Origin: Candidatus Wolfebacteria bacterium RIFCSPLOWO2_01_FULL_47_17b
Lineage (GTDB): Bacteria; Patescibacteriota; Minisyncoccia; UBA6257; JAGOQP01
Direction: 5' to 3'
DNA: 38,379 nucleotides
Assembly (NCBI GenBank): GCA_001793865.1
Contig: MGIS01000004.1
Coordinates: 30,916-69,294, forward strand
Both the position numbers and the translations under genes were made by a program. Positions within the stretch are counted from its first letter, which is position 1, and every line of letters begins with the position of its first letter. The notes under the pieces were generated by a model, which was not told the origin of the DNA, ran no database searches, and saw only the letters and a program-made list of their open reading frames with translations. Of this stretch, positions 244 to 38,312 are shown piece after piece.

Positions 244-3200
244 TTATTTTTTCCGAACTCCTATCCAAGTTCTATATTCATCAACTTTCGTCTCCACCTG
301 CGCGTCAACCTTGTCATTCTTGCCGATCATCATCTTCTTCGCCCCCACCTGTCTCATAAGCTCTTTTTCATTGTTTTTGACAAGGAGCTCGATTTGCTCA
401 CTGCCCGCCACCCACAACTGAATTCTATCCTTTGGTTGATACCCGGCGTCCTGCCGTAACCCTTGCACCGTGCGCACAAACTCCCGCAACAACCCCTCCG
501 CTTTTAGCTCCGGTGTAATTTCTATATCTAGCTCGAACTCGGAACCAAGTTTCGCATCCATAACCACATCTTTTACATTTATCTCCTCTTTCAAAACCTC
601 AAGCATCTCTTCAACCCGACTTCCTCGTTTCGCCTTGGGAATATTTTTTACAGTGAGCTTTGCAAGCGGCTGGCGCACCTTAATGCCGAGTTCCGCCCGC
701 TTCGCGAGCACCGCGCTTGCCGTGTCCCGCACCCATTGCATGAGGTGAGAAGTTGGAAGTTGGAAGTTGGAAGTTGGAAAATCCAGGCGCGACAAATGGA
801 CTGATTCTTCGGGAACGCCTTTGAAATCTTTTTTAAGCGACTGGAATAAACCCTCCGCAAAGAACGGGCTGAATGGCGCAATAAGCTTGGCGTATTGCAA
901 CAGCACATACGCGAGCGTCGCCGATTCGTTTGATATGCGCTTGCGCGACCGCCGGATGTACCAGCGAGAAAGGTCGTCGGTAAATGCTTCCAGCACAAGA
1001 GCGGCACGCGTTACATCATACGCGTCCATATGTTGCACGACCAACTGTGTTGTCTGGGTAAGACGCTCCAGAATCCACGCGTCAAGAATATGAGAAGGCG
1101 AAGGCGGTTTCGAAAGCGAAACGCCCTTCTTCCCATACATGCTAAGAAACGCGTACGAATTGTACGCCACCATATGAAACCTCCTCAGCGTCTTGACCAC
1201 ATCTTGTTCATCGAAATTTTTTGACTCTCCGGGGTCGTTCACCGTAAAAAAGTACCACCGCACCGCGTCCGCTCCGTACTTCTGCATAAGAGCCCAGGGA
1301 TCAACCACGTTTCCTTTTGACTTGGACATCTTCTGTCCTTGTTTATCGTGAATAAGCCCAACCGATATCACGTTCCTATACGGCGGAGGCGGCACATCCA
1401 GAAGAGTTGCGACCGCCAGCAATGTATAGAACCAGCCTCGCGTTTGATCAATCGCCTCACAAATGTAATCGGCGGGATATATACCTCGTAAATTTCGAAT
1501 TTCGAATTTCGAATTTCGAATTTGAGCGAAAGAGCTATGCTCTTGAGCAACAGGCATCGCGCCCGAATCAAACCATACATCCGCCACCTCCGGGATTCTT
1601 TTCATTTTACCAACCTCCGACTTCTCATCTCTCATTACACACTTCTCACATCTCACCTCAATTTCATCCACATACGGCCGATGCGGATCAAGGCGTCCCG
1701 ACATATCTGTAGGCAGATTATCGTATGAGAGTTTTTTTAATTCAGCATTTTTGAGCAGCATATCAAACGAGTGCTCCAGAGATTGTTCATTTGAGAAATG
1801 TTCCAGGGCAGATTGAAGCATCCACATTGTATCTCCATGGCTTACGATCAGAACACTTTGATTCCTATGTTCCGCCGCTATTTTGGTAAAAAAGTCCAAC
1901 ACCCGTTCGCGTACCTGACTTAATGTTTCTCCTCCTTCCGGAGCAACACTGAATTTATCAATTTCCTCTCTTCCATCAAGGGCATAAAACTTCAGCCGCT
2001 CAGTAACCTTCTTATGGTTGAAAATCCCCGAATTTATTTCGCCAAGCCGTTTGTCAAAGATCACTTTTGCCCCCGTTACACCAGAAATAATCCTTGCGGT
2101 TTGAATCGTACGACAATACGGAGACGTATATATGATATCTATTTTTTTCTTTTTAAGCTCCTGAGCAGCCCTTCCCACCTGCTCGATTCCTGTTTTCGTC
2201 AGCTTTGAGCGGAATTTTCCGCTCTTGGGCTCTTTCCCTCCCGCAAGCCACCCCTCCACATTACTCGTCGCCTGCCCGTGCCGCATAATAAAAAAAGTGT
2301 TTCCCTTATCCGCCTTTTTTGAAAGCTCCACGAAACTGCCTATAACATCTGTATGCCCGCATGAATCGCACTTCCATACCGGAAGTGGGGTGCCCCAATA
2401 CCGCTCGCGCGAAAAATTCCAGTCCTTCACGTCTTTAAGCCACTCGCCAAACCTGCCCTTCTGCAGGTGCGAGGGAATCCAATTAATTTTTGCGTTTGAC
2501 GCCTGCAATTTTGACCTCAACTTGGACATCGCCACAAACCACGATCCGCGCGCGTAATACAAAAGCGGCGTGCCGCACCTCCAGCAATGCGGATATTCGT
2601 GCTCATACGATTCCGTCTTGAAAAGATTTTTATTTTTTTGAAGGAGTTCGAATATTTTCTTTTCCGTTTCCGAAGATTTCACGAACATCCCCGAAAGCCC
2701 TTTGACGTCTTTAGTGAATTTCCCCTGCTCGTCCACCGTATGATACTGCGGAAGCCCGATCTTTTTTCCGAGTTCGTAGTCATCCTCTCCGTACATCACC
2801 GCCGTATGCACAATGCCGGTGCCGTCTTGTGCTGTTACAAAATCAGCCGCATATACCTTGTACGAAGCGTCCGACTTCAGTGCAGGAACATCGAACAACG
2901 GCTTGTATGAAAGTCCCTCGAGTTTTCTGCCTTTGAAACTTTCAACTTTTTCAAAGCCCTTCCCCAATACCTCTGCCCGATCCACCGCAACAATAACGTA
3001 TTCCTCCGTCTTGATATTTCTAAAAAGTCCGTAGGCAATATCCTTTCCGACTGCAAGCGCTACATTCCCCGGAAGCGTCCACGGCGTCGTAGTCCATGAA
3101 AGCACACATACAGGTGCTTTCGTGCCCTTCGTAGCTTCAGCGAAGAAGGGCTTCTCAATCCTAAACTTAACAAAAACGGATTCGTCCGTGACCGTTTTAT

Positions 3201-3783
3201 ACCCCTGCGCGAGCTCATGCGACGAAAGCGCCGTCCCGCACCGGGGGCACCACGGCACCACCTTATGCCCCTGGTACAAAAGCTTGCGATCATAAATCTT
3301 TTTAATAACTCCCCACAGCGCCTCCACATACGAGTTTTCGTACGTCACATACGGATGTTCCAGATCCAGCCAGTATCCCATCCGTTCGGTGAGCTTTTCC
3401 CACTCGCTTTTATACTGCCAGACCGATTCCTTGCATTTTTTGTTAAACTCGGCGATGCCGTAGTGTTCAATATCCTTCTTGGACTTCAAACCGAGTTGTT
3501 TTTCCACCTGCAGTTCCACCGGAAGCCCGTGCGTATCCCAGCCGGCTTTGCGCGGAACCAAAAAGCCCTGCATCGTCTTATATCGCAACACCACATCCTT
3601 AAACGAACGCGCAAGCACATGATGCAGGCCGGGGCGGCCGTTGGCAGTCGGCGGCCCCTCCCAAAAACGAAATGTTTTACTCCCTTTCTTTACACTTTTT
3701 TCAAAGATATGTTTTTCCTTCCAGAACGCCAGCACTTTTTCCTCCAGTTCGGGAAGATTGAACGATTTCAGATTCCGTAGCAT
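244..3783 (-). CDS. ileS: Isoleucyl-tRNA synthetase with an inserted histidine-phosphatase domain
   Basis: Cytosolic class I synthetase that charges tRNA-Ile with isoleucine (1179 aa). The N-terminal catalytic region has GPPTANGRPG followed by LHH in place of canonical HIGH (about residues 43-56). CPRCG (179-183), the CP1 editing region, CWRCG (400-404) and CDSC (472-475) follow. WFDSGAMPVAQ is at 737-747 and KMSKS at 818-822; the C-terminal anticodon-binding region ends the protein. Between CDSC and the next CEKC pair (712-715), where the family has a short linker, residues about 495-690 form a histidine phosphatase/phosphoglycerate-mutase-like domain. It has RHG 501-503, R558 in CRTIQTA, E592 and H649 in SHGD. 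Two heptamer tandem repeats are translated in frame (about 753-766 and 1002-1015). A TAGTAT box 7 nt upstream suggests a leaderless start. Confidence 0.95.
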   Translation of the reverse strand: MLRNLKSFNLPELEEKVLAFWKEKHIFEKSVKKGSKTFRFWEGPPTANGRPGLHHVLARSFKDVVLRYKTMQGFLVPRKAGWDTHGLPVELQVEKQLGLKSKKDIEHYGIAEFNKKCKESVWQYKSEWEKLTERMGYWLDLEHPYVTYENSYVEALWGVIKKIYDRKLLYQGHKVVPWCPRCGTALSSHELAQGYKTVTDESVFVKFRIEKPFFAEATKGTKAPVCVLSWTTTPWTLPGNVALAVGKDIAYGLFRNIKTEEYVIVAVDRAEVLGKGFEKVESFKGRKLEGLSYKPLFDVPALKSDASYKVYAADFVTAQDGTGIVHTAVMYGEDDYELGKKIGLPQYHTVDEQGKFTKDVKGLSGMFVKSSETEKKIFELLQKNKNLFKTESYEHEYPHCWRCGTPLLYYARGSWFVAMSKLRSKLQASNAKINWIPSHLQKGRFGEWLKDVKDWNFSRERYWGTPLPVWKCDSCGHTDVIGSFVELSKKADKGNTFFIMRHGQATSNVEGWLAGGKEPKSGKFRSKLTKTGIEQVGRAAQELKKKKIDIIYTSPYCRTIQTARIISGVTGAKVIFDKRLGEINSGIFNHKKVTERLKFYALDGREEIDKFSVAPEGGETLSQVRERVLDFFTKIAAEHRNQSVLIVSHGDTMWMLQSALEHFSNEQSLEHSFDMLLKNAELKKLSYDNLPTDMSGRLDPHRPYVDEIEVRCEKCVMRDEKSEVGKMKRIPEVADVWFDSGAMPVAQEHSSFAQIRNSKFEIRNLRGIYPADYICEAIDQTRGWFYTLLAVATLLDVPPPPYRNVISVGLIHDKQGQKMSKSKGNVVDPWALMQKYGADAVRWYFFTVNDPGESKNFDEQDVVKTLRRFHMVAYNSYAFLSMYGKKGVSLSKPPSPSHILDAWILERLTQTTQLVVQHMDAYDVTRAALVLEAFTDDLSRWYIRRSRKRISNESATLAYVLLQYAKLIAPFSPFFAEGLFQSLKKDFKGVPEESVHLSRLDFPTSNFQLPTSHLMQWVRDTASAVLAKRAELGIKVRQPLAKLTVKNIPKAKRGSRVEEMLEVLKEEINVKDVVMDAKLGSEFELDIEITPELKAEGLLREFVRTVQGLRQDAGYQPKDRIQLWVAGSEQIELLVKNNEKELMRQVGAKKMMIGKNDKVDAQVETKVDEYRTWIGVRKK
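752..779. repeat. Heptamer tandem repeat (GTTGGAA)x4 within ileS
   Basis: Four perfect consecutive copies of GTTGGAA (plus strand). They are read by ileS as FPTSNFQLPTS at about residues 1002-1012. The frame is maintained. Confidence 0.95.
1491..1523. repeat. Heptamer tandem repeat (GAATTTC)n within ileS
   Basis: AATTTC followed by three perfect GAATTTC units and a final GAATTT. ileS reads it as IRNSKFEIRN between SSFAQ and LRGIYPADYI, a place where IleRS proteins normally have no extra residues. The unit also occurs in the arms of the AT-rich inverted-repeat elements at 7192-7302, 9825-10272, 12711-12830 and 13063-13180. Confidence 0.95.
1714..2301 (-). other. Histidine phosphatase (phosphoglycerate-mutase-like) domain inside ileS
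   Basis: This is the part of ileS coding for residues about 495-690. The RHG signature, second arginine (CRT), glutamate and SHGDT histidine of the histidine phosphatase superfamily are all present in order, so catalysis looks possible. Flanking residues on both sides match ordinary IleRS, which marks this as a clean domain insertion in one reading frame. The substrate cannot be told from sequence. Confidence 0.85.
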
Positions 3784-3796
3784 GCACTATATACTA
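3784..3796 (-). promoter_or_regulatory. Putative leaderless -10 box of ileS
   Basis: TAGTAT (3796-3791) lies 7 nt before the ileS ATG with no Shine-Dalgarno sequence between. The same hexamer serves secD and the HTH/PRTase gene. The -35 is weak. Confidence 0.45.
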
Positions 3797-3830
3797 CAGG
3801 AAAAAACGGCGGTTTTCCATCCACACATAT

Positions 3831-3859
3831 AAAAAGCGGCTCTTCCACGAGCCGCTCCA
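3831..3859 (-). terminator. Rho-independent terminator
   Basis: On the minus strand AGCGGCTC, a 6-nt loop and GAGCCGCT are followed by TTTTTAT. It closes the small two-gene unit at 3865-4237 and insulates it from ileS. Confidence 0.8.
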
Positions 3860-3864
3860 AATTG

Positions 3865-3948
3865 TTATACAAACAATTTAAAAATCAGGAAAGATAACAG
3901 AACAAAATAGACAACACCAACAGCATTAAGAGATTTCTTTAGTTTCAT
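3865..3948 (-). CDS. Small single-pass membrane protein, 27 aa, unknown function
   Basis: ATG at 3948 is preceded at 4 nt by a strong GGGAGG ribosome site. The product is 27 residues: a lysine-rich start (MKLKK), then a hydrophobic stretch (VGVVYFVLLSFLIFKLFV) to the end, so a one-helix membrane peptide with a cytoplasmic basic N-terminus is likely. It lies 37 nt after the 83-aa membrane protein and just before a terminator, so the two are probably one transcript. I do not recognise a family. The strong ribosome site, in a region where most genes lack one, is the main reason to believe it. Confidence 0.6.
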   Translation of the reverse strand: MKLKKSLNAVGVVYFVLLSFLIFKLFV

Positions 3949-3985
3949 ACAACCTCCCGATAAGAAAACCGTTCAAAAAAACAAG

Positions 3986-4237
3986 TCAGCTGATCCGGTA
4001 CAATATTTTGGGCCGATAGAAGATGATATTGGTCTGGCGGACATATCCCGTGTTTTCGTACCTATACGGGCCGAATCCCCCAATCGGAACATCATACGAA
4101 GCATTCCCCCTTTCCCAATACACAGTCGGTACAACCCTCATATAATCAGGGCGGACAAAGCGCGGGAACCCCATCGCGGCCATAGCTATAAAAATAGAAA
4201 TAACTATAACCGCAATGAAAAATTTATAATAATCCAT
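3986..4237 (-). CDS. Small membrane-anchored protein, 83 aa, unknown function
   Basis: The N-terminus carries one membrane helix (about residues 6-24, FFIAVIVISIFIAMAAMGF). A short polar, aromatic-rich tail follows, with several Tyr/Arg residues, that should face outside. A strong GGAGG site lies about 5 nt before the ATG. I recognise no domain. It is followed by a 27-aa membrane peptide and a terminator, so the two may form a small membrane module. Confidence 0.7.
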   Translation of the reverse strand: MDYYKFFIAVIVISIFIAMAAMGFPRFVRPDYMRVVPTVYWERGNASYDVPIGGFGPYRYENTGYVRQTNIIFYRPKILYRIS

Positions 4238-4371
4238 CTTTCCCTCCGATATTTTAGTGAAACTATAATTTGAATTATATTATAAAAGAACGAAATGTTT
4301 TGGCTACTCTTATAATACCACACCTAAAAGAATGGGTATGTGAAAAACTTTTTAAAAATGCGATCTTGCGG

Positions 4372-4377
4372 TATACT
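4372..4377 (+). promoter_or_regulatory. -10 box for the 61-aa protein gene
   Basis: TATACT ends 7 nt before ATG 4385, with no Shine-Dalgarno site, so a leaderless transcript is likely. The -35 is weak. Confidence 0.5.
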
Positions 4378-4384
4378 AAAACAT

Positions 4385-4570
4385 ATGAAAAAAGAGAAAT
4401 TCATACTGCCTGAAAAAGGAGACGAGCCGAGAGAAGGCCCGGATGATATTATAGAAGAATACATGCATGCGGCGCAGAAAAGAGGGTCAAACGATGAAGA
4501 AAAACATAAGAATATTAAGGATACTTTTGAAAAGCTGAAAGAGTTCAAAAAGGAGGAAACAAAAAAATAA
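4385..4570 (+). CDS. Small highly charged protein, 61 aa, unknown function
   Basis: Start chosen at ATG 4385 rather than the earlier ATG at 4340, because TATACT lies 7 nt upstream and would make the earlier ATG untranscribed. The product is almost entirely charged (Lys/Glu/Asp), starting MKKEKFILPEKGDEP and ending in a predicted amphipathic or coiled helix (NIKDTFEKLKEFKKEE). There is no membrane segment or known motif. It stands alone between the membrane pair and ssrA. It could be a small cytosolic binding protein; no function is claimed. Confidence 0.55.
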   Translation: MKKEKFILPEKGDEPREGPDDIIEEYMHAAQKRGSNDEEKHKNIKDTFEKLKEFKKEETKK

Positions 4571-4627
4571 AAGCAAGCGGCCTTTTGTTCGATTTCCGAT
4601 TCAATCCTCCTAAGCCTCCGCATTCTC

Positions 4628-4664
4628 TAAAATAAAATACCCTCGGGAATGAGAGTATTTTATT
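4628..4664 (-). terminator. Terminator of ssrA
   Basis: A long A/T-rich stem starts 5 nt past the tmRNA 3' end on the minus strand: AATAAAATACTCTC pairs with GAGGGTATTTTATT (one G-U) around a 5-nt loop, then T-rich sequence. Confidence 0.7.
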
Positions 4665-4668
4665 CCAG

Positions 4669-4991
4669 TGGAGGCGGGAGGATTGAACCCCCGTCCAGAA
4701 AAAACTTCGAAAACCGTCTACAGACATAGTTTAGTCCGAAGACTAAGCAAATTTTTCTTCCTTAATGTCCCCACACCTACGGAAGAGCTTGGTGCGGGTA
4801 CATCTCATATATAACACCGGAGATTCTCCTATGAGATATCAGGGTCCGATGTGCGTACGCGAGAACTGTACGTTCTTAAGCGTATGCAGGTGCTAATTGT
4901 TTGTTAGCAGTTGTTGTTTGATCGGATTCAAGAGGCGATCAGCTCTGCCTGCAGTTTTCAAAGGAGTTTCTCCGTCGAAGCGTGCGCCCCC
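4669..4991 (-). ncRNA. ssrA: tmRNA (transfer-messenger RNA)
   Basis: Rescues stalled ribosomes with SmpB. The 5' end GGGGGCGCACGCUUCGACGG and 3' end CGCCUCCA pair into a 7-bp acceptor stem (one G-U), and the GGGGGUUCAAUCC T-arm is present. CCA is not encoded: the bases after the discriminator A are CTG, so CCA must be added by the nucleotidyltransferase. The tag frame runs from 4908 to 4876: resume codon GCU, peptide ANKQLAPAYA, stop UAA. The length of about 323 nt is normal. The 5' end directly abuts the smpB stop codon. Confidence 0.95.
4876..4908 (-). other. tmRNA proteolysis tag open frame
   Basis: GCU AAC AAA CAA UUA GCA CCU GCA UAC GCU UAA codes ANKQLAPAYA. Like other tags it starts with Ala-Asn and is alanine-rich with a small hydrophobic end, but it ends in AYA rather than the common LAA. 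Confidence 0.85.
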
Positions 4992-32252: not shown

Positions 32253-34610
32253 TCATATCTTCTTAAAATCAATCTTCCGCCACGTTCTATCCCGCGCTTC
32301 TTCCCGGACAACGTCCATGTTGGATTTCATCTCGGGAACTATTTTTTCAAACGCATCGGCAGCGCGAATAGAGTTTGTTGCATCCTTCTGCGTATAAAAA
32401 TGCTCAAGCAAGAAATAGAGCGCTTGTGCGGGATTAATGCCTCCACCATAACCTTCCCCGCCAAGATCTTCGCTTATAATGAATTCGTCCAAAGCGCGCT
32501 CGTATTGTTCCAAATCCCCTGCCGAGGTCAGAAATAATCCGAGATAGAAGTGCGGCCCCGCGACCCGCGAGTCAAGTGCGATCGCCTTTTCCAGAAGCCG
32601 TATCGCTTCATCATACCTGTTCTGCAGGGAAAGGTTGAAACCAAGCAGATAATATACATTCTGTCTCGTTGGCGAAAGCGAAAGAGCCTTTCGGTACATC
32701 TCTTCAGCTTGGGTATAGTAGGCGGGATCTTTTTTTCTGCCAAGCGCATCGTATGCTTCGCCTATGAGAATATAGTATCGCGGATTATACAACTCCCGAT
32801 CCGCGACATCGCGCATAAGATCAACGCTAAAAAGCAATAAATTCGTTTCGCCGTTCGTTCCGGAATACTGTTGCGTAACGCTTTCTATGACGTTTTTACG
32901 TATTATTTCCTGAGTAAACGTGTATGGCTTAAAATAGCCCTCTGAGAGTTGCTTTTCGGTTGATCGAGATTTTAATAGCTGCATATATGAATGTATCTGC
33001 CCGTACGGCACCCAAGTCCACGCGATAAACGCCAGCGCATAGAACAGAGCTGCCGCCGCAAATATCCAGGCATGAGTTGTGAGTTGTGAGTTGTGAGTTG
33101 TGAGTTTTTCTCCTTTCGCATCATTCGCATTTGAAGCATTGGAATATATTCGAAGATTTGAATTATATATCACAAACGCCAAAAACATGAAGAATGGAAT
33201 ATATGTCGTGATCGCGTCAAACACAAACAGATTCTGCACAAAATACGCCACACTAAAAAACAATACCGGCAGCACAAAGCGCGTATGAGGTTCTAAGGTT
33301 CGACCTTGGTCCCTAAAGGTCGAACCTTGGTCTTGAACCTCATGTGCACGGTCTTCGAATTGAATTTTCCTTCCTTTCAGCCCCCACCACAACGCCACCC
33401 AAATTCCCATATACGCCACAAACCCCAGCACGCCGTGCATAACAAGCACATCCATCAGTTTATTGTGCGCCCGGTCGAACCATGCCTGCTCATATCTGTA
33501 AAATTCCGGATTGTAATACGTATTGTATGCGATGTTAAAGTTTTCCGGCCCCCATCCGACAAGAAATCTGCCTATGCCGTTGTCCGCAGGATTGATTCCC
33601 CTTAAACTCACCCCAAGCGATATCAGCCGTGTCTGCACTGTATTATTTTGGAACGTAAATTCGGAAATACGATCAAAGCCCGGAATCCTGTTCCAAAGTT
33701 CCGCGTCTCTTGTTGTATAAAAAATCCCCCCCAGCACCACCAGCACTCCAAGTGCAACCACCGCAAGCTTCCTTGAGGTGGCATCAGCCGAAGGATTTCC
33801 ATTTGAAGCATTCGAATCAATTCGTTGATTTGGATTGCGTACGATTATATATATAAGCGTAGCCATAATCGCAACAGCGATTCCTACAATCACCCCTCTG
33901 GTCTCAGTAATAAATATCCCGAGCAGCGAGACTGGAACCATCACAGCACTGAACATTTTCCAGAATTTCCCGAAGGCCCAGCCTCGGTCCCGGGAGGCCG
34001 GGCCTTGATTCTGAGAGAGTCGGACCTCGGTTTGTAACACCACCCATCCCGCGAATATCACGAATAAAAACACCACCGCCAAATATATCGGATTCCCCGT
34101 AAACGATGCGGGTCGCGGTATCTTCTGCGAAAGCTGTACAAGTTCGTGTATAAAAAGTACCGCTCCCGAAATAAGCGTAAGCTTGAAAAACATCAGCCAG
34201 TTTTTGCGCTCGAAAAGAAGCGAAGCAAACACAAAGAATCCAAACAAGAAAAGCATGGTCACCAGCCCTTCCGCCCGCTCCGTATCTCCAAAAAATGCCC
34301 TGTATGGGTTCACCGCAAACAAGGTGCTTATAATCATCAGGACCATAAACGCCCCCACAAACCAAAATACTTTGTTTTTCAGCAACTTTCGCATCCGTAT
34401 TGAGGTTTGGCCTCGGTCTGCGGAGGCCGAACCTCGATCCTCGCTTCCGCGTTCTTTAAATACAAGCCACGCAAACCCCACCGCCACCAATGTCACCACC
34501 AACCGAATAAAAATCGATTTCCCGCTTATGAACGGAAAAAAAAGTGATTTCGTCACAATCAAAGGTGTAAACGCCAGCGCGTACAAAAGCCATATAAGAA
34601 CTTTCTTCAT
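32253..34610 (-). CDS. O-antigen ligase/polymerase-like membrane protein with C-terminal TPRs
   Basis: 785 aa from ATG 34610. TGG-TATTAT ends 6 nt before it, so the longer frame (34646) is rejected. Ten or more membrane helices (to about residue 560) include the Wzy_C/WaaL-type loop between the GWGPENFNIAYNTYYNPEF region and RAHNKLMDVLVMHGVLGF. Soluble TPR repeats follow (about 620-740: YYILIGEAYDALG, NVYYLLGFNLSLQNRYDEAI, PHFYLGLFLTSAGD). It likely joins or polymerises lipid-linked glycans, possibly glycosylating proteins. Three 41-bp hairpin repeats and one heptamer repeat are translated in frame in its loops (DQGSTFRDQGRT, LTTHNSQLTTH). Confidence 0.88.
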   Translation of the reverse strand: MKKVLIWLLYALAFTPLIVTKSLFFPFISGKSIFIRLVVTLVAVGFAWLVFKERGSEDRGSASADRGQTSIRMRKLLKNKVFWFVGAFMVLMIISTLFAVNPYRAFFGDTERAEGLVTMLFLFGFFVFASLLFERKNWLMFFKLTLISGAVLFIHELVQLSQKIPRPASFTGNPIYLAVVFLFVIFAGWVVLQTEVRLSQNQGPASRDRGWAFGKFWKMFSAVMVPVSLLGIFITETRGVIVGIAVAIMATLIYIIVRNPNQRIDSNASNGNPSADATSRKLAVVALGVLVVLGGIFYTTRDAELWNRIPGFDRISEFTFQNNTVQTRLISLGVSLRGINPADNGIGRFLVGWGPENFNIAYNTYYNPEFYRYEQAWFDRAHNKLMDVLVMHGVLGFVAYMGIWVALWWGLKGRKIQFEDRAHEVQDQGSTFRDQGRTLEPHTRFVLPVLFFSVAYFVQNLFVFDAITTYIPFFMFLAFVIYNSNLRIYSNASNANDAKGEKLTTHNSQLTTHAWIFAAAALFYALAFIAWTWVPYGQIHSYMQLLKSRSTEKQLSEGYFKPYTFTQEIIRKNVIESVTQQYSGTNGETNLLLFSVDLMRDVADRELYNPRYYILIGEAYDALGRKKDPAYYTQAEEMYRKALSLSPTRQNVYYLLGFNLSLQNRYDEAIRLLEKAIALDSRVAGPHFYLGLFLTSAGDLEQYERALDEFIISEDLGGEGYGGGINPAQALYFLLEHFYTQKDATNSIRAADAFEKIVPEMKSNMDVVREEARDRTWRKIDFKKI
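33074..33104. repeat. Heptamer tandem repeat (GAGTTGT)x4 in the ligase gene
   Basis: Four perfect GAGTTGT units plus GAG; read by the gene as LTTHNSQLTTH before a membrane helix. Confidence 0.95.
33287..33341. repeat. 41-bp hairpin repeat with GAGGTTC/GAACCTC arms (copy F1)
   Basis: Core 33294-33334 is an inverted repeat AAGGTTCGACCTT / AAGGTCGAACCTT, each half also nearly palindromic. It is bounded by complementary 7-mers. Inside the ligase frame. Confidence 0.9.
33972..34012. repeat. 41-bp hairpin repeat core (copy F4)
   Basis: GAAGGCCCAGCCTCGGTCCC followed by GGGAGGCCGGGCCTTGATTC; inside the ligase gene, followed by a half-unit GTCGGACCTCGGTTTG. Confidence 0.8.
34401..34441. repeat. 41-bp hairpin repeat core (copy F5)
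   Basis: TGAGGTTTGGCCTCGGTCTG then CGGAGGCCGAACCTCGATCC; inside the ligase gene. Confidence 0.85.
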
Positions 34611-34625
34611 TGGAAAATAATACCA
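34611..34625 (-). promoter_or_regulatory. Extended -10 box of the ligase gene
   Basis: TGG then TATTAT (34622-34617), 6 nt, ATG at 34610. Confidence 0.6.
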
Positions 34626-34646
34626 GATATTCGCGTTTTCTTCCAT

Positions 34647-34672
34647 CCAAAAACCCCCGAAGGGGTTTTTGG
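34647..34672 (-). terminator. Terminator after the surface protein gene
   Basis: 11-bp stem CCAAAAACCCC / GGGGTTTTTGG with a 4-nt loop and T-rich sequence; symmetric, so it may work both ways. Confidence 0.8.
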
Positions 34673-34693
34673 TGGTTTTTAGTTTAACCAGTA

Positions 34694-36652
34694 TTACCGA
34701 TCAACCAAGTATACATTTCCAGTCTTGAAATCTTCAAGATTGAAGTTGTATAGGATGTCGCCGTCCTCGTCAGACGTTGTACCATAGGTCAAACTACCCA
34801 GAGAGATGCCAGTGTATCCGGTCGACGTAGCAACGATGGTCGCGCTGATCTTAAAGCGAGCCGTATCATCCTCATTGATAGTGAATGAATTGGATCCTTC
34901 GGTTACCGCATCACCACTGATCCATTCGATGTCTGCCGACAACGTTCCCGTTCCGGTGATGTTAAGGTCGTGTGTTCCAAGACCTCCCGAATCGCTCGGA
35001 TTTGTGCTGTCAAGATACATAGCCGCATCAAACGCTGTTACGTCGAATACGATCTCATACGTACCGCGATCAGACGATGTCGTCTGCGCGCCGCTCAAAT
35101 CGACTGCGGTTGCACTGACGGAAATGAGTTCAACCATGATACCAGTGTCATAGAACGTAACCGCCTCTCCGGTTGCTGAACCGGTCAGATCCGCTGTCGC
35201 GAGATCTTCTCCGGATTCATCCTCCGCTTGAATGCTTGCGACCTCAACGCGCGCCTGCGCGGTGTCTCCTTCATCAAGAGTGCCAGTCAAATCCTGTACA
35301 TCAATGGTAACAAGAAGCTCAACGGTGTCTCCTGCGTCAATAGTGAAGTCAAGGTCATCAAATGTGACTGCACCACCTGCCGCAACATCCTTTGTGCTGA
35401 GTGTCTCACCATCCATAACAAGGTTTGCCGCTTTGATGATAACTGACTCATCCGTCTCGCCCGTGGTGGTAACGGTAATCGGAATATCCTTCACGAGAAC
35501 ATCCGAATCTCCTTCCGCTTCAAGCGTGAACGAAAGGACTTCAACATTATCCGTGTCGGTAGATCCCGAGTTCACATTAACCACGTGTGCTTCGTTGATT
35601 GCGTCATCATCGTTGTTCAGAGAAACTTTAAGCTCTGCGTCCGAAACGTCCGCAAACGCGCCGAAGTCGAATTTCTTCTCAAGCGTTTCGTCTGCGCTGT
35701 CATCGTCGATATCAAGCGTAAAGCTTTCGGTCAACGAAACTCCCGTTCCGTCCACAAAACGGATGCTGGATACACCAACGCTCCAGTCGTCCGAATCGAT
35801 ATCTGCGGAATCGAGGTTAGTTAACGCGGATACTGCGATTGCAACGGTCATCTCATCTCCTGCGCGAATGATCGCGTTGCTCAGTGAGATATTTTTTGAC
35901 CATTCATCGTTTGACTCGCTGAATGAATCTGTGTCCTCCTCTCCAACTTTGTCGCCTTCAAGGAAAACCGATACTGACTCGGCATAATCGGGAAGATCGC
36001 GGTCGCTTCCTGTAGTGTCATCTTCATGGAACTCAACCTTGATGGCGGTGAGCTGAACGTCTGAATCATCATCCGCTTCAACGTCAAATGCCAATATCTT
36101 CACATCCTCTTCGCCCTCTCCGACCTGCTCTGCTGAGTAGGTGGAAAGCGCAGTCACGGTTATATTACCCACTCCACCGCTCAGACCTGAAGGTGTCGGA
36201 GACACGCCAGGTGCTGTTGACGGAGAAACGGACGGATTAACCACGACCATCGAGTTCATGTGTGCTCTGGTTATAGGACCAAAGTAACCTGCTGCCGGCG
36301 AAATGCCGACTGATGCCTGATAGCTTGCCAATGCTGATTTGGTCAAAGGACCAAAGTAGCCGTAGCTTGCTCCCGCAGGCATGGTGAGGAAGCCCTTGGA
36401 AACCAAGAATTGCTGTAAAGCGGTTACGTCTGCACCTGTTGAACCGAGGGTGAGGTCCGCGGTATAGGTGTAGGATGCGCTGCCGCCTGTGCTGCCTCCT
36501 CCTGCAATTTGTCCTTGTAGTTGTGCGATCATCGCCAAAAGGCTCTGGATCTGCGCATTCAGCTCGTCAACCGTCTGTGCTTGCACAGGGGTGTACACGC
36601 CGATAACGCCAAGCATAAGAACAACTGCAACAAATTTCGAAAATTTACTCAT
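34694..36652 (-). CDS. Secreted acidic surface protein with peptidoglycan-binding domain
   Basis: 652 aa. Signal peptide about 1-26 (VVLMLGVIGVYTPVQAQ), then a short helical segment (28-50) and a Gly-rich linker. A peptidoglycan_binding_1-type domain follows (about 66-135: GSTGADVTALQQFLVSKGF, YFGPLTKSALASYQ, YFGPITRAHM), then a Pro/Ser/Thr linker. About 490 residues of Asp/Glu/Thr/Ser-rich beta repeats follow (VEFHEDDTTGSD, SADIDSDDW, EAEGDSDVLVKDI), with no Arg/Lys-rich parts. This looks like an S-layer-type or adhesive cell-surface protein, probably calcium-dependent. It is followed by a terminator and preceded by a 533-nt non-coding stretch. It could be a substrate of the neighbouring glycan system; that is inference. 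Confidence 0.85.
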   Translation of the reverse strand: MSKFSKFVAVVLMLGVIGVYTPVQAQTVDELNAQIQSLLAMIAQLQGQIAGGGSTGGSASYTYTADLTLGSTGADVTALQQFLVSKGFLTMPAGASYGYFGPLTKSALASYQASVGISPAAGYFGPITRAHMNSMVVVNPSVSPSTAPGVSPTPSGLSGGVGNITVTALSTYSAEQVGEGEEDVKILAFDVEADDDSDVQLTAIKVEFHEDDTTGSDRDLPDYAESVSVFLEGDKVGEEDTDSFSESNDEWSKNISLSNAIIRAGDEMTVAIAVSALTNLDSADIDSDDWSVGVSSIRFVDGTGVSLTESFTLDIDDDSADETLEKKFDFGAFADVSDAELKVSLNNDDDAINEAHVVNVNSGSTDTDNVEVLSFTLEAEGDSDVLVKDIPITVTTTGETDESVIIKAANLVMDGETLSTKDVAAGGAVTFDDLDFTIDAGDTVELLVTIDVQDLTGTLDEGDTAQARVEVASIQAEDESGEDLATADLTGSATGEAVTFYDTGIMVELISVSATAVDLSGAQTTSSDRGTYEIVFDVTAFDAAMYLDSTNPSDSGGLGTHDLNITGTGTLSADIEWISGDAVTEGSNSFTINEDDTARFKISATIVATSTGYTGISLGSLTYGTTSDEDGDILYNFNLEDFKTGNVYLVDR

Positions 36653-36713
36653 TGTAGAATTTTTGTCTTAACTAGTTGTAGATTTGTAATGTGTCTCTAA
36701 CTCTCCCTCCCAA

Positions 36714-36729
36714 TCCGCCAGCTGGCGGA
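36714..36729. repeat. 16-bp perfect palindrome TCCGCCAGCTGGCGGA
   Basis: GC-rich palindrome in an otherwise mixed region; only one copy is seen in the window. Confidence 0.8.
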
Positions 36730-36830
36730 CATCGGGAACCTACCACTACTACCGACCCGCTGCTTCATCGGTGAGGACGAATCAGCAAGCTAATAATAAT
36801 AAGCAATTTAGGAAATTAGAGTTCATGCAT

Positions 36831-36885
36831 CCCGTTAGACACGCGGTGCGCTGTCTAACCGGGACGACTTCCACTAGGGAAGTCG
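36831..36885. promoter_or_regulatory. Two adjacent hairpins in the surface-gene leader
   Basis: 36831-36863 has 11 paired bases with one bulge; 36865-36885 has 8 paired bases with a 5-nt loop. They are separated by one base, which could be a structured leader RNA. Confidence 0.55.
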
Positions 36886-36906
36886 GACATACAGGGAACG
36901 AAGCGG

Positions 36907-36961
36907 GAGGTTCTAAGGTTCAACCTTGGTTTTGGAAGGTTGAACCTTGGTCTTGAACCTC
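36907..36961. repeat. 41-bp hairpin repeat with GAGGTTC/GAACCTC arms (copy F2)
   Basis: Core 36914-36954; nearly the same as F1 although F1 lies in a gene and this copy is intergenic. Confidence 0.9.
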
Positions 36962-37022
36962 GGTCTGTAAGCTTCGTTCTCAATATCTCCGATCCCCCTA
37001 AAAAGAAAACTCTCACTGTTCG

Positions 37023-37063
37023 TGAGGTTCGACCTCGGTCTGGGGAGGTTGAACCTCGATTCC
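37023..37063. repeat. 41-bp hairpin repeat core (copy F3)
   Basis: TGAGGTTCGACCTCGGTCTG then GGGAGGTTGAACCTCGATTC; intergenic; flanks only partly complementary. Confidence 0.85.
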
Positions 37064-37185
37064 CAAACCGCCGCTCTCCTCCTCACAAGAAAAGCGAATA
37101 TATTCTATTCTATCACTTATAACGCCCCTCCGCAACAAACGTTACCCACTTATCCACAGTTTCGAAATTAGAAATTCGAAATTAG

Positions 37186-37977
37186 TCATTCCTCGTTTTT
37201 ACGGCTAAGCCGCAAAAACGAGTCTGGTCCTCCCTTGCCCACCCGCTCCACCAGGCGCCTGTCCACCAGCCCTTTTACGTCATATCTGAGTGTCCGCTCA
37301 CTGATATGCGGCAAAGCCGTTGCAATCTCCCGCATCCCGCACATAGACCGCTCTTTCAATAGGCGTAATATCACCTGTTTTCGCTCATATGACGTCATCT
37401 CCGAGTCCGGCAATTCCTTGCCAGGTTCAATCTGGTTCAAAGGTTGAACCTCGGTTTGTCCAGTCCGTAAGGTTTGGCCTTGCTTTGCGAAGGCCGAACC
37501 TTGGTTTGCGGACTGAATTTCTCCATTCTTTCCATTGCCTGACTCCGGCAACTCTTTGCCAGATATTAGATTCCGAGGTCGAACTTCGGTCTGTTCAGCT
37601 CGTAAGGTCTGGCCTCGGTCCGGGGAGGCCAGACCTTGGTCTGCGAGCTGAGTTCCAAAAATCCCCTCAATAGATTCTCCCAACTCTCTCTGCGTCCCCT
37701 CGCTACGCGATCGCTCCGCGATCGCTTGTCGCAGATTCTCCGTCTCCCGCAAAAGCACCCGTCCGTTCACATCCTTTATCTCTCCTATCTGTACCGCCAG
37801 CCGGACCGCCTCCTCCAACCCAACCAAGTTATCCACAGTTTTATCTGAAAGGTAGCTAAGCGCTCGCTTCTCCAGAAGCTCACGCAAATCGGTGCGCTTC
37901 ACGAATTCCCCCACGCGAAACACGGCCCACACCACCTCAAATGACCTCTGCATGAAGAATTCTTTGGAGAATTTCAT
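37186..37977 (-). CDS. HTH protein with repeat-expanded linker
   Basis: 263 aa. A predicted helical N-terminal domain (about 1-105; MKFSKEFFMQRSFEVVWAVFRVGEFV, then ELLEKRALSYLSDKTVDNLVGL) of unknown function comes first. A low-complexity linker (about 110-190) made almost wholly from two hairpin repeats follows (ADQGLASPDRGQTLR and ANQGSAFAKQGQTLR). The C-terminal winged helix-turn-helix is DeoR-like (about 192-258: RKQVILRLLKERSMCGMREIATALPHISERTLRYDVKGL, in two parts). Probably a DNA-binding regulator. Its ATG overlaps the GIY-YIG stop (ATGA). The tail of an AT-rich element adjoins its stop. Confidence 0.75.
   Translation of the reverse strand: MKFSKEFFMQRSFEVVWAVFRVGEFVKRTDLRELLEKRALSYLSDKTVDNLVGLEEAVRLAVQIGEIKDVNGRVLLRETENLRQAIAERSRSEGTQRELGESIEGIFGTQLADQGLASPDRGQTLRAEQTEVRPRNLISGKELPESGNGKNGEIQSANQGSAFAKQGQTLRTGQTEVQPLNQIEPGKELPDSEMTSYERKQVILRLLKERSMCGMREIATALPHISERTLRYDVKGLVDRRLVERVGKGGPDSFLRLSRKNEE
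37461..37515. repeat. 41-bp hairpin repeat with CAGTCCG/CGGACTG arms (copy F6)
   Basis: Core 37468-37508; preceded by a half-unit (37440-37458). In frame within the HTH gene. Confidence 0.9.
37596..37650. repeat. 41-bp hairpin repeat with CAGCTCG/CGAGCTG arms (copy F7)
   Basis: Core 37603-37643; preceded by a half-unit (37575-37593). In frame within the HTH gene. Confidence 0.9.
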
Positions 37978-38234
37978 CCCGTTAGAGAAAGGAAGCGCTT
38001 TAGCCGATTTTTAAGATATCTCTTACCCATGCCGGTTTTGAGATATTTTTCTCGTGCAAAAGCGTCTCCTTTTGTTAAGCACACTTCATAATATAAAAGC
38101 GTGAAAGGACCGCGACCTCTTGTTGATGCAACCATACCATTATTATGCTCGCTAAAGCGCTTCCGTAGATCATCGCTACAGCCGGTATACCACTTCTTAT
38201 CCTTGTCGCTTTGTAGCAGATATGTATACCACAT
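37974..38234 (-). CDS. GIY-YIG nuclease-superfamily protein
   Basis: 86 aa from ATG 38234 (an in-frame ATG at 38267 would add 11 residues and also has a possible -10, TAATTT, 6 nt before it). The single GIY-YIG domain is WYTYLLQSDKDKKWYTGCS, the catalytic Arg is in DDLRKRFSEHN, then G...YEVCLTKGDAFAREKYLK with its Glu. This is the small UPF0213/YhbQ-like type, usually annotated as a nuclease of unknown role. It is coupled by ATGA overlap to the HTH gene. Confidence 0.88.
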   Translation of the reverse strand: MWYTYLLQSDKDKKWYTGCSDDLRKRFSEHNNGMVASTRGRGPFTLLYYEVCLTKGDAFAREKYLKTGMGKRYLKNRLKRFLSLTG

Positions 38235-38312
38235 ATAGACTTTCTCTAACGGGAAGCATGCCTGCAAATTACCCCATTTCCCCCTCCCCCGTCAATGTCC
38301 AAGGTGGTGAAT

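Follow-up and report, generated by a model that had tools for sequence, protein, structure and literature searches.

REPIN-like elements inserted within genes of a Wolfebacteria genome and RAYT genes carrying matching palindromes

Element copies in the window

The stretch analyzed here, hereafter the window, comprises 38,379 nt of Candidatus Wolfebacteria bacterium RIFCSPLOWO2_01_FULL_47_17b, a member of the Patescibacteria (contig MGIS01000004.1, positions 30,916 to 69,294). It contains seven copies of a hairpin-forming repeat, which an earlier note, made from the sequence alone, had likened to the repetitive extragenic palindromes (REPs) and bacterial interspersed mosaic elements (BIMEs) handled by REP-associated tyrosine transposases (RAYTs). 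All seven proposed copies were found, and a repeat search gathered them in a single 38-nt family, with a 55-nt family at five places. Three of them, all on the plus strand, lay in frame within the minus-strand gene of a 797-aa O-antigen ligase (Wzy_C) and TPR protein (32253..34646): copy 1 (33287..33341), composed of the outer arm GAGGTTC, a 13-nt near-palindrome, a loop, the facing near-palindrome and the outer arm GAACCTC; copy 2 (33972..34011), a core with no clear outer arms; and copy 3 (34401..34440), a core with no outer helix. Copy 4 (36907..36961, plus strand), again with the arms GAGGTTC/GAACCTC, and copy 5 (37023..37062, plus strand), a core devoid of an outer helix, were intergenic. 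Copy 6 (37461..37515, plus strand; arms CAGTCCG/CGGACTG) and copy 7 (37596..37650, plus strand; arms CAGCTCG/CGAGCTG) were found in frame within the minus-strand gene of a 263-aa HTH_12 winged-helix protein (37186..37977). The occurrence of copies both in frame inside two genes and between genes was thus as previously described.

The 7-mers reported as complementary in four copies do pair and are spaced exactly 41 nt; the other three copies presented no clear outer arms. All the sites listed in the earlier note held a copy, but the list mixed the starts of outer arms (33287, 36907, 37461 and 37596) with those of cores (33972, 34401 and 37023). Likewise, the core AGGTYNRRCCT was shared by the family, but the copy at 33972 read AGGCCCAGCCT, off the consensus. 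In addition, a decayed copy, CCAGGTTCAATCTGG...AAGGTTGAACCTCGGTTT, adjoined copy 6 (37421..37457, plus strand; covariance-model match G000:C4:68336-68372, 20 bits), and a single half-element, CCGAGGTCGAACTTCGGTCTG, was read straight from the sequence at 37574..37594 (plus strand).

The most strongly kept structure was a 13-bp stem pairing the two facing 13-nt near-palindromes across an 8-nt loop, with 98.9% of the alignment cells of the stem in standard pairs among the window copies and 7 of the 13 pairs changed on both sides. Pairing within each near-palindrome was weaker: AGG/CCT was invariant, and two inner pairs became G.T in one half and C.A in the other. Folding of the copies as single-stranded DNA gave z values down to –8, far beyond shuffled sequences in five of the seven window copies. 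A known structured RNA was ruled out as the identity of the elements, since the only match in an Rfam scan of the window was a tmRNA at 4666-4991, with none at the element places.

The family across the genome

The genome comprises 729,804 bases in 25 contigs, of which the stretches around matches were read. The AGGTYNRRCCT pattern gave 79 + 76 = 155 strand matches in these 730 kb versus 10 + 5 = 15 for the reversed pattern, and a covariance model of the seven window copies, the genome search that had been recommended, returned 101 strand matches (E up to 1), corresponding to about 55-58 distinct places. The same kind of search in 60 relatives revealed the window subtype in just one other genome (G026). 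Among 33 ungapped copies, with 429 stem pairs, 406 pairs were Watson-Crick, 18 were G.T and 5 were mismatched, versus a mean of 47.6 mismatches and a minimum of 35 when arms were dealt to other copies, even though 19 different left arm sequences were present. The earlier claim that the folded structure is kept therefore extends to the whole genome. As for the outer arms, helices scoring at least 7 were observed in 16 of the 33 copies versus 8% of mismatched partners, indicating that they are a trait of one subfamily (T-AAGG...CCTT-GGTYT); outside it they were missing, for example in the window copies at 34401 and 37023, so that the covariation of outer arms previously proposed held in one part of the family. 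Covariation among the copies could reflect pairing needed during mobility or arm-to-arm homogenization, and not just selection on each resident copy.

Of 55 places examined, 42 fell in open frames no shorter than 140 aa, among them 31 placed well inside, with at least 35 residues before and at least 15 after the element; some N-terminal placements (AlaRS, MurG, NYN and others) may precede the true start codon. According to Pfam, the hosts included O-antigen ligase, PGK, TIM, LepA, LeuRS, CysRS, Pth, RNase HII, TsaD, TsaE, FtsK, FolD, ScpA, SMC, rpe, a reverse transcriptase and ribosomal protein S16. The earlier note had considered that copies might sit only in the same two genes; they were found in more than 30 different host genes on many contigs, and tandem duplication within two genes was thereby ruled out. 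When TIM, Pth, LepA and TsaD were aligned to solved relatives, their elements fell in loops or gaps. The elements use several reading frames (EVxPxQTxVEP, DQGSTxxDQGRT and RFGLGLGRPNLG), in agreement with the earlier view that selection does not act on the protein sequence, and no common position relative to gene starts or stops was found among the unrelated host genes.

The comparison with insertion-free ligase orthologs, which had also been suggested, was made with genomes of other genera, the nearest ones compared, alignable at the protein level only. Copies 1-3 were missing from all five same-family orthologs, four of them with 46-53% identity over the N-terminal part and the fifth with 37% over its full length, and gaps of 9, 5-14 and 19-26 residues stood opposite the three copies, indicating that these copies are insertions. 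Taken together, the paired stem, the copies within genes and the absence from orthologs demonstrate, at the level of sequence comparison, that the window copies belong to a real family of inserted, intragenic elements resembling REP doublets forming hairpins (REPINs).

At one host locus (L066, G000:C24:67050-72750), two open reading frames (ORFs; 1463-2959 and 3483-4682) encode a pilin-like protein that bears an FGE-sulfatase (C-type-lectin-like) domain and, after it, a reverse transcriptase. This gene pair looks like a diversity-generating retroelement, and each of the two genes contains a copy of the window element.

RAYT genes of the genome and their palindromes

No RAYT was visible in the window, and the earlier note had advised looking for one elsewhere. 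In fact, four Y1_Tnp/HUH RAYT genes were found in the genome, all of them outside the window, and the reading of their surroundings revealed that each has its own palindrome. The RAYT of contig 22 has the palindrome TCTTACGAGGTYGAACCTCRTAAGA on both flanks and also, in frame, within its coding sequence; the upstream copy reads GAGGTTGAACCTC, the inner and downstream ones GAGGTCGAACCTC. The RAYT of contig 10 and the plus-strand RAYT of contig 24 both carry GAGGCTNAGCCTC, likewise upstream, downstream and in frame within the coding sequence. The minus-strand RAYT of contig 24 (L006, G000:C24:80559-83789) presents paired CAAGATTTAATCTTG doublets on both flanks and none inside its ORF. In the contig-22, contig-10 and plus-strand contig-24 genes, the inner palindrome occupies the same protein position, encoding SYEVEPRK, LYEAKPRK and SYEAEPRR, respectively. 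The 11-nt core of the window family, AGGTYNRRCCT, is also the core of the contig-22 RAYT palindromes, on both flanks and inside the gene. The AGGCTNAGCCT core was barely dispersed, with 10 places, 7 of them at the two RAYTs of that type, versus 79 for AGGTYNRRCCT.

RAYTs of this type were detected in 25 of 101 related genomes, and 80 loci were taken from GTDB genomes, the majority of them Parcubacteria and other Patescibacteria, plus a small number of records under other labels, such as Omnitrophota and Elusimicrobia. Among 99 distinct RAYT genes, 63 contained a palindrome within the ORF that agreed with their own flanks. The main site lies about 24 codons ahead of the HuH motif; there, 54 of 58 genes matched their own flanks (at least 6 of 8 arm positions), versus a mean of 13 and a maximum of 23 in 2000 trials in which genes were permuted, and the codon phase was identical in 52 of these 54 palindromes. 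The upstream and downstream palindromes matched each other in 61 of 69 genes, with a permutation maximum of 23. A control window just after HuH contained strong palindromes in 0 of the 99 genes, and a second control window in 12, which prompted an ORF-wide scan that revealed a second real palindrome site about 75 codons after HuH; nearly all of the eleven matches lying off the main site were placed there. On a tree of the 99 proteins, obtained by a short search and with weak inner support, the 5-nt core of the inner palindrome needs at least 34 changes, and the in-ORF label was not significantly clustered, the label test counting genes and not evolutionary events. Since the palindromes differ between genes yet match within each gene, the sequences show that the copies of a RAYT, hundreds of bases apart and one of them coding, change in concert.

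Fold and classification of the RAYTs

The aligned RAYTs present the expected HuH and Y---NP motifs, as NH[FYI]H and YIHLNP, and exceed the PF01797 cut-off. A sequence search for solved relatives returned none at E 0.01, and the relative was found by fold: the best Foldseek match to the RAYT model was 4er8, in which the E. coli RAYT is in complex with a REP hairpin (E 5.8e-7, TMt 0.67). The structure predicted for L187, a relative sharing the 29-nt palindrome, had a mean predicted local distance difference test score (pLDDT) of 89, and the only stretch below 50, residues 53-64, overlapped residues 58-68 encoded by the palindrome, so that the in-ORF REP probably encodes a disordered linker ahead of the HuH strand in this model.

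By motif comparison, NHFH, FQG, YIHLNP, RWSS and a length of about 235 aa fit TnpA_REP subclass 2.1 (Bertels group 1), whose traits are NH[YF]H, FQ, Y[IV]HLNP, an SS tail and about 238 aa (PMC6006769, Table 1). No associated REPs were reported for this subclass (PMC6006769); in contrast, palindromes on the flanks and within the ORF were present in most of the 99 genes.

Relationship between the RAYTs and the repeats

Palindromes with two cores, of the GAAGT and GAGGT types, were counted over the 101 genomes. At least 5 core palindromes were found in 16 of 23 RAYT-bearing genomes versus 7 of 78 others (Fisher p=2e-8), and the association persisted when 4 copies were deducted from every RAYT genome and the threshold was set at 4 (p=2e-5), both p-values being optimistic because genomes of one clade are not independent. 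We consider the copies likely to be non-autonomous mobile elements of a REPIN-like kind that a RAYT has probably spread, the best candidate being that of contig 22 or a close relative. The earlier comparison with RAYT-handled REPs and BIMEs thus stands for a structure-keeping family and a resident RAYT with the same 11-nt core; cleavage and transfer of the elements by the contig-22 RAYT we infer. The likeliest course is modelled on E. coli TnpA_REP biochemistry, as reviewed in PMC6006769 and PMC3733652. The unit consists of two facing REPs, the 13-nt near-palindromes with the AGGTYNRRCCT core, forming a 13-bp hairpin often lengthened by pairing outer arms. The RAYT, a single-strand nuclease of the HUH/Y1 type, would recognize the REP hairpin in single-stranded DNA, cut beside it and rejoin the element at a new place. 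Within genes, the insertions expected to survive would be those keeping the frame in surface loops or linkers.

Some observations weigh against this assignment. The palindromes beside the contig-22 RAYT are single and long, TCTTACGAGGTYGAACCTCGTAAGA, in place of window-type doublets with a GGTYTG spacer, so that the doublets may descend from another or a lost RAYT. Neither GTAG nor GTGG stood consistently at the hairpin feet in 59 aligned matches inspected, the conserved neighbor being GGTYTG, and neither excision nor strain polymorphism nor a target rule was observed. The RAYTs scored 25-39 bits with NCBIfam NF047646, below its 80-bit equivalog cut-off. Finally, one genome (G095) held 43 GAAGTNNNACTTC core palindromes, many of them as doublets 18-21 nt apart, without any Y1_Tnp match, being either orphan repeats or the result of an assembly gap.

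This repeat-rich genome, together with the doublet architecture and outer arms that the contig-22 RAYT lacks, would fit a spread of the elements by another mobile system or one since lost. The RAYT would then share the core only through having been a target itself, or through an ancient divergence of its REPs from the doublets. Such a scenario seems unlikely, given the association between RAYT presence and core-palindrome abundance across genomes, the identity of the core with that of one resident RAYT and not of the others, and the doublet palindromes on the flanks of another resident RAYT, L006. Still less probable is that the hairpins are kept for an RNA or DNA function, as terminators, mRNA stability elements or protein-binding sites, with mobility confined to the past: the spread over unrelated genes in several frames, the lack of a shared position relative to starts and stops, the absence from orthologs of the same gene and the lack of Rfam matches at the window places all speak against it, even though the stem pairs are preserved despite the diversity of arms and the majority of copies lie in transcribed genes. 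It is very improbable that selection acts on the inserted peptides as features of the protein, with the DNA palindrome as a by-product, in view of the several reading frames, the same stem in intergenic copies and the location of insertion sites in variable loops, despite the reading of inserts in frame through housekeeping proteins and the single codon phase of nearly all main-site RAYT palindromes.

With mobilization by a RAYT as the preferred reading, the in-frame REP of the RAYT gene itself calls for an explanation. Candidates are its maintenance for autoregulation through mRNA or DNA binding, RAYT-driven conversion, and a frozen ancestral insertion homogenized with the flanks. Tentatively, the REP might be a working part, by which the nuclease recognizes its own gene or mRNA, in self-limitation or cis-preference, with RAYT-driven conversion keeping the REPs of each gene identical while they drift fast between genes; if true, this family would be a transposase rewriting its own coding sequence to fit its changing target.

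Other repeats of the window

A second dispersed inverted-repeat family, TCCCGTTAGA...TCTAACGGGA, was observed in the window (37974-38267, minus strand, and 36831-36862), with 19+18 strand matches genome-wide versus 0+1 for the control, nearly all of them as facing pairs about 55-120 nt apart. In the window, one pair brackets a small GIY-YIG-like ORF of 97 aa, and this unit may be the autonomous version of the family. Moreover, three perfect 7-nt tandem arrays were present: GAAGTTG (749-779) and AATTTCG (1491-1523), both within a long ORF (244-3783), and TGAGTTG (33073-33106).

Comparison with known systems

In the open-access literature, with subscription papers and preprints outside the search, no paper on RAYTs or REPs in Patescibacteria was found, nor were REPs with a subclass-2.1-like clade, the position before HuH or concerted sets. 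These results would bring Patescibacteria, and a RAYT clade resembling one reported without REPs, into the RAYT-REP partnership. A RAYT gene that has the matching hairpin on both flanks and within its coding sequence makes the coupling between transposase and repeat directly testable, and palindromes matched gene by gene, one of them coding, offer dozens of transposase-target pairs of differing specificities from which a recognition code could be read and tested.

REPINs have already been described (PMC3116915). As in REPINs and BIMEs, two REPs in inverted orientation fold across a short spacer into one hairpin and compensatory changes are frequent, and the genome also encodes a Y1 RAYT whose palindromes match the elements in the 11-nt core. 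Unlike those elements, which are mostly extragenic, they mainly occupy open frames (42 of 55 places), no GTAG guide was found and the RAYT belongs to a different clade; as for the cognate RAYT of REPINs, the flanks of the contig-22 RAYT share the 11-nt core, though as single long palindromes.

REPs inside tnpA_REP genes are known from subclass 2.4 and some members of subclass 2.8 (PMC6006769), which resemble the present genes in the in-frame REP within the transposase gene in addition to flanking REPs. In those subclasses, however, the REP is placed between HuH and Y, whereas here it lies before HuH or after Y, the motifs fit subclass 2.1, and the inner and flanking copies were shown quantitatively to change together. 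Intragenic GTAG/CGTC REPs (Opitutus terrae) and TIRtrons (PMC3733652) similarly involve REPs within ORFs and RAYT-like genes flanked by self-complementary repeats; the elements described here differ in the lack of a GTAG or CGTC tag, in the palindrome being also inside the transposase gene and in their occurrence in Patescibacteria, which the consulted text of that paper does not treat.

Finally, the Rickettsia palindromic elements (RPEs) of Ogata et al., reviewed in PMC10969869, are in-frame insertions that affect numerous unrelated protein genes, likewise within a reduced genome. The present palindromic units show the same kind of in-frame placement in unrelated protein genes, and a reduced, streamlined genome with dozens of apparently selfish inserts in housekeeping proteins would stand beside Rickettsia as a case of mobile DNA writing new protein segments. 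By description, they differ from RPEs, units of about 150 bp, in being doublets of 41-57 nt accompanied by a RAYT of matching core.

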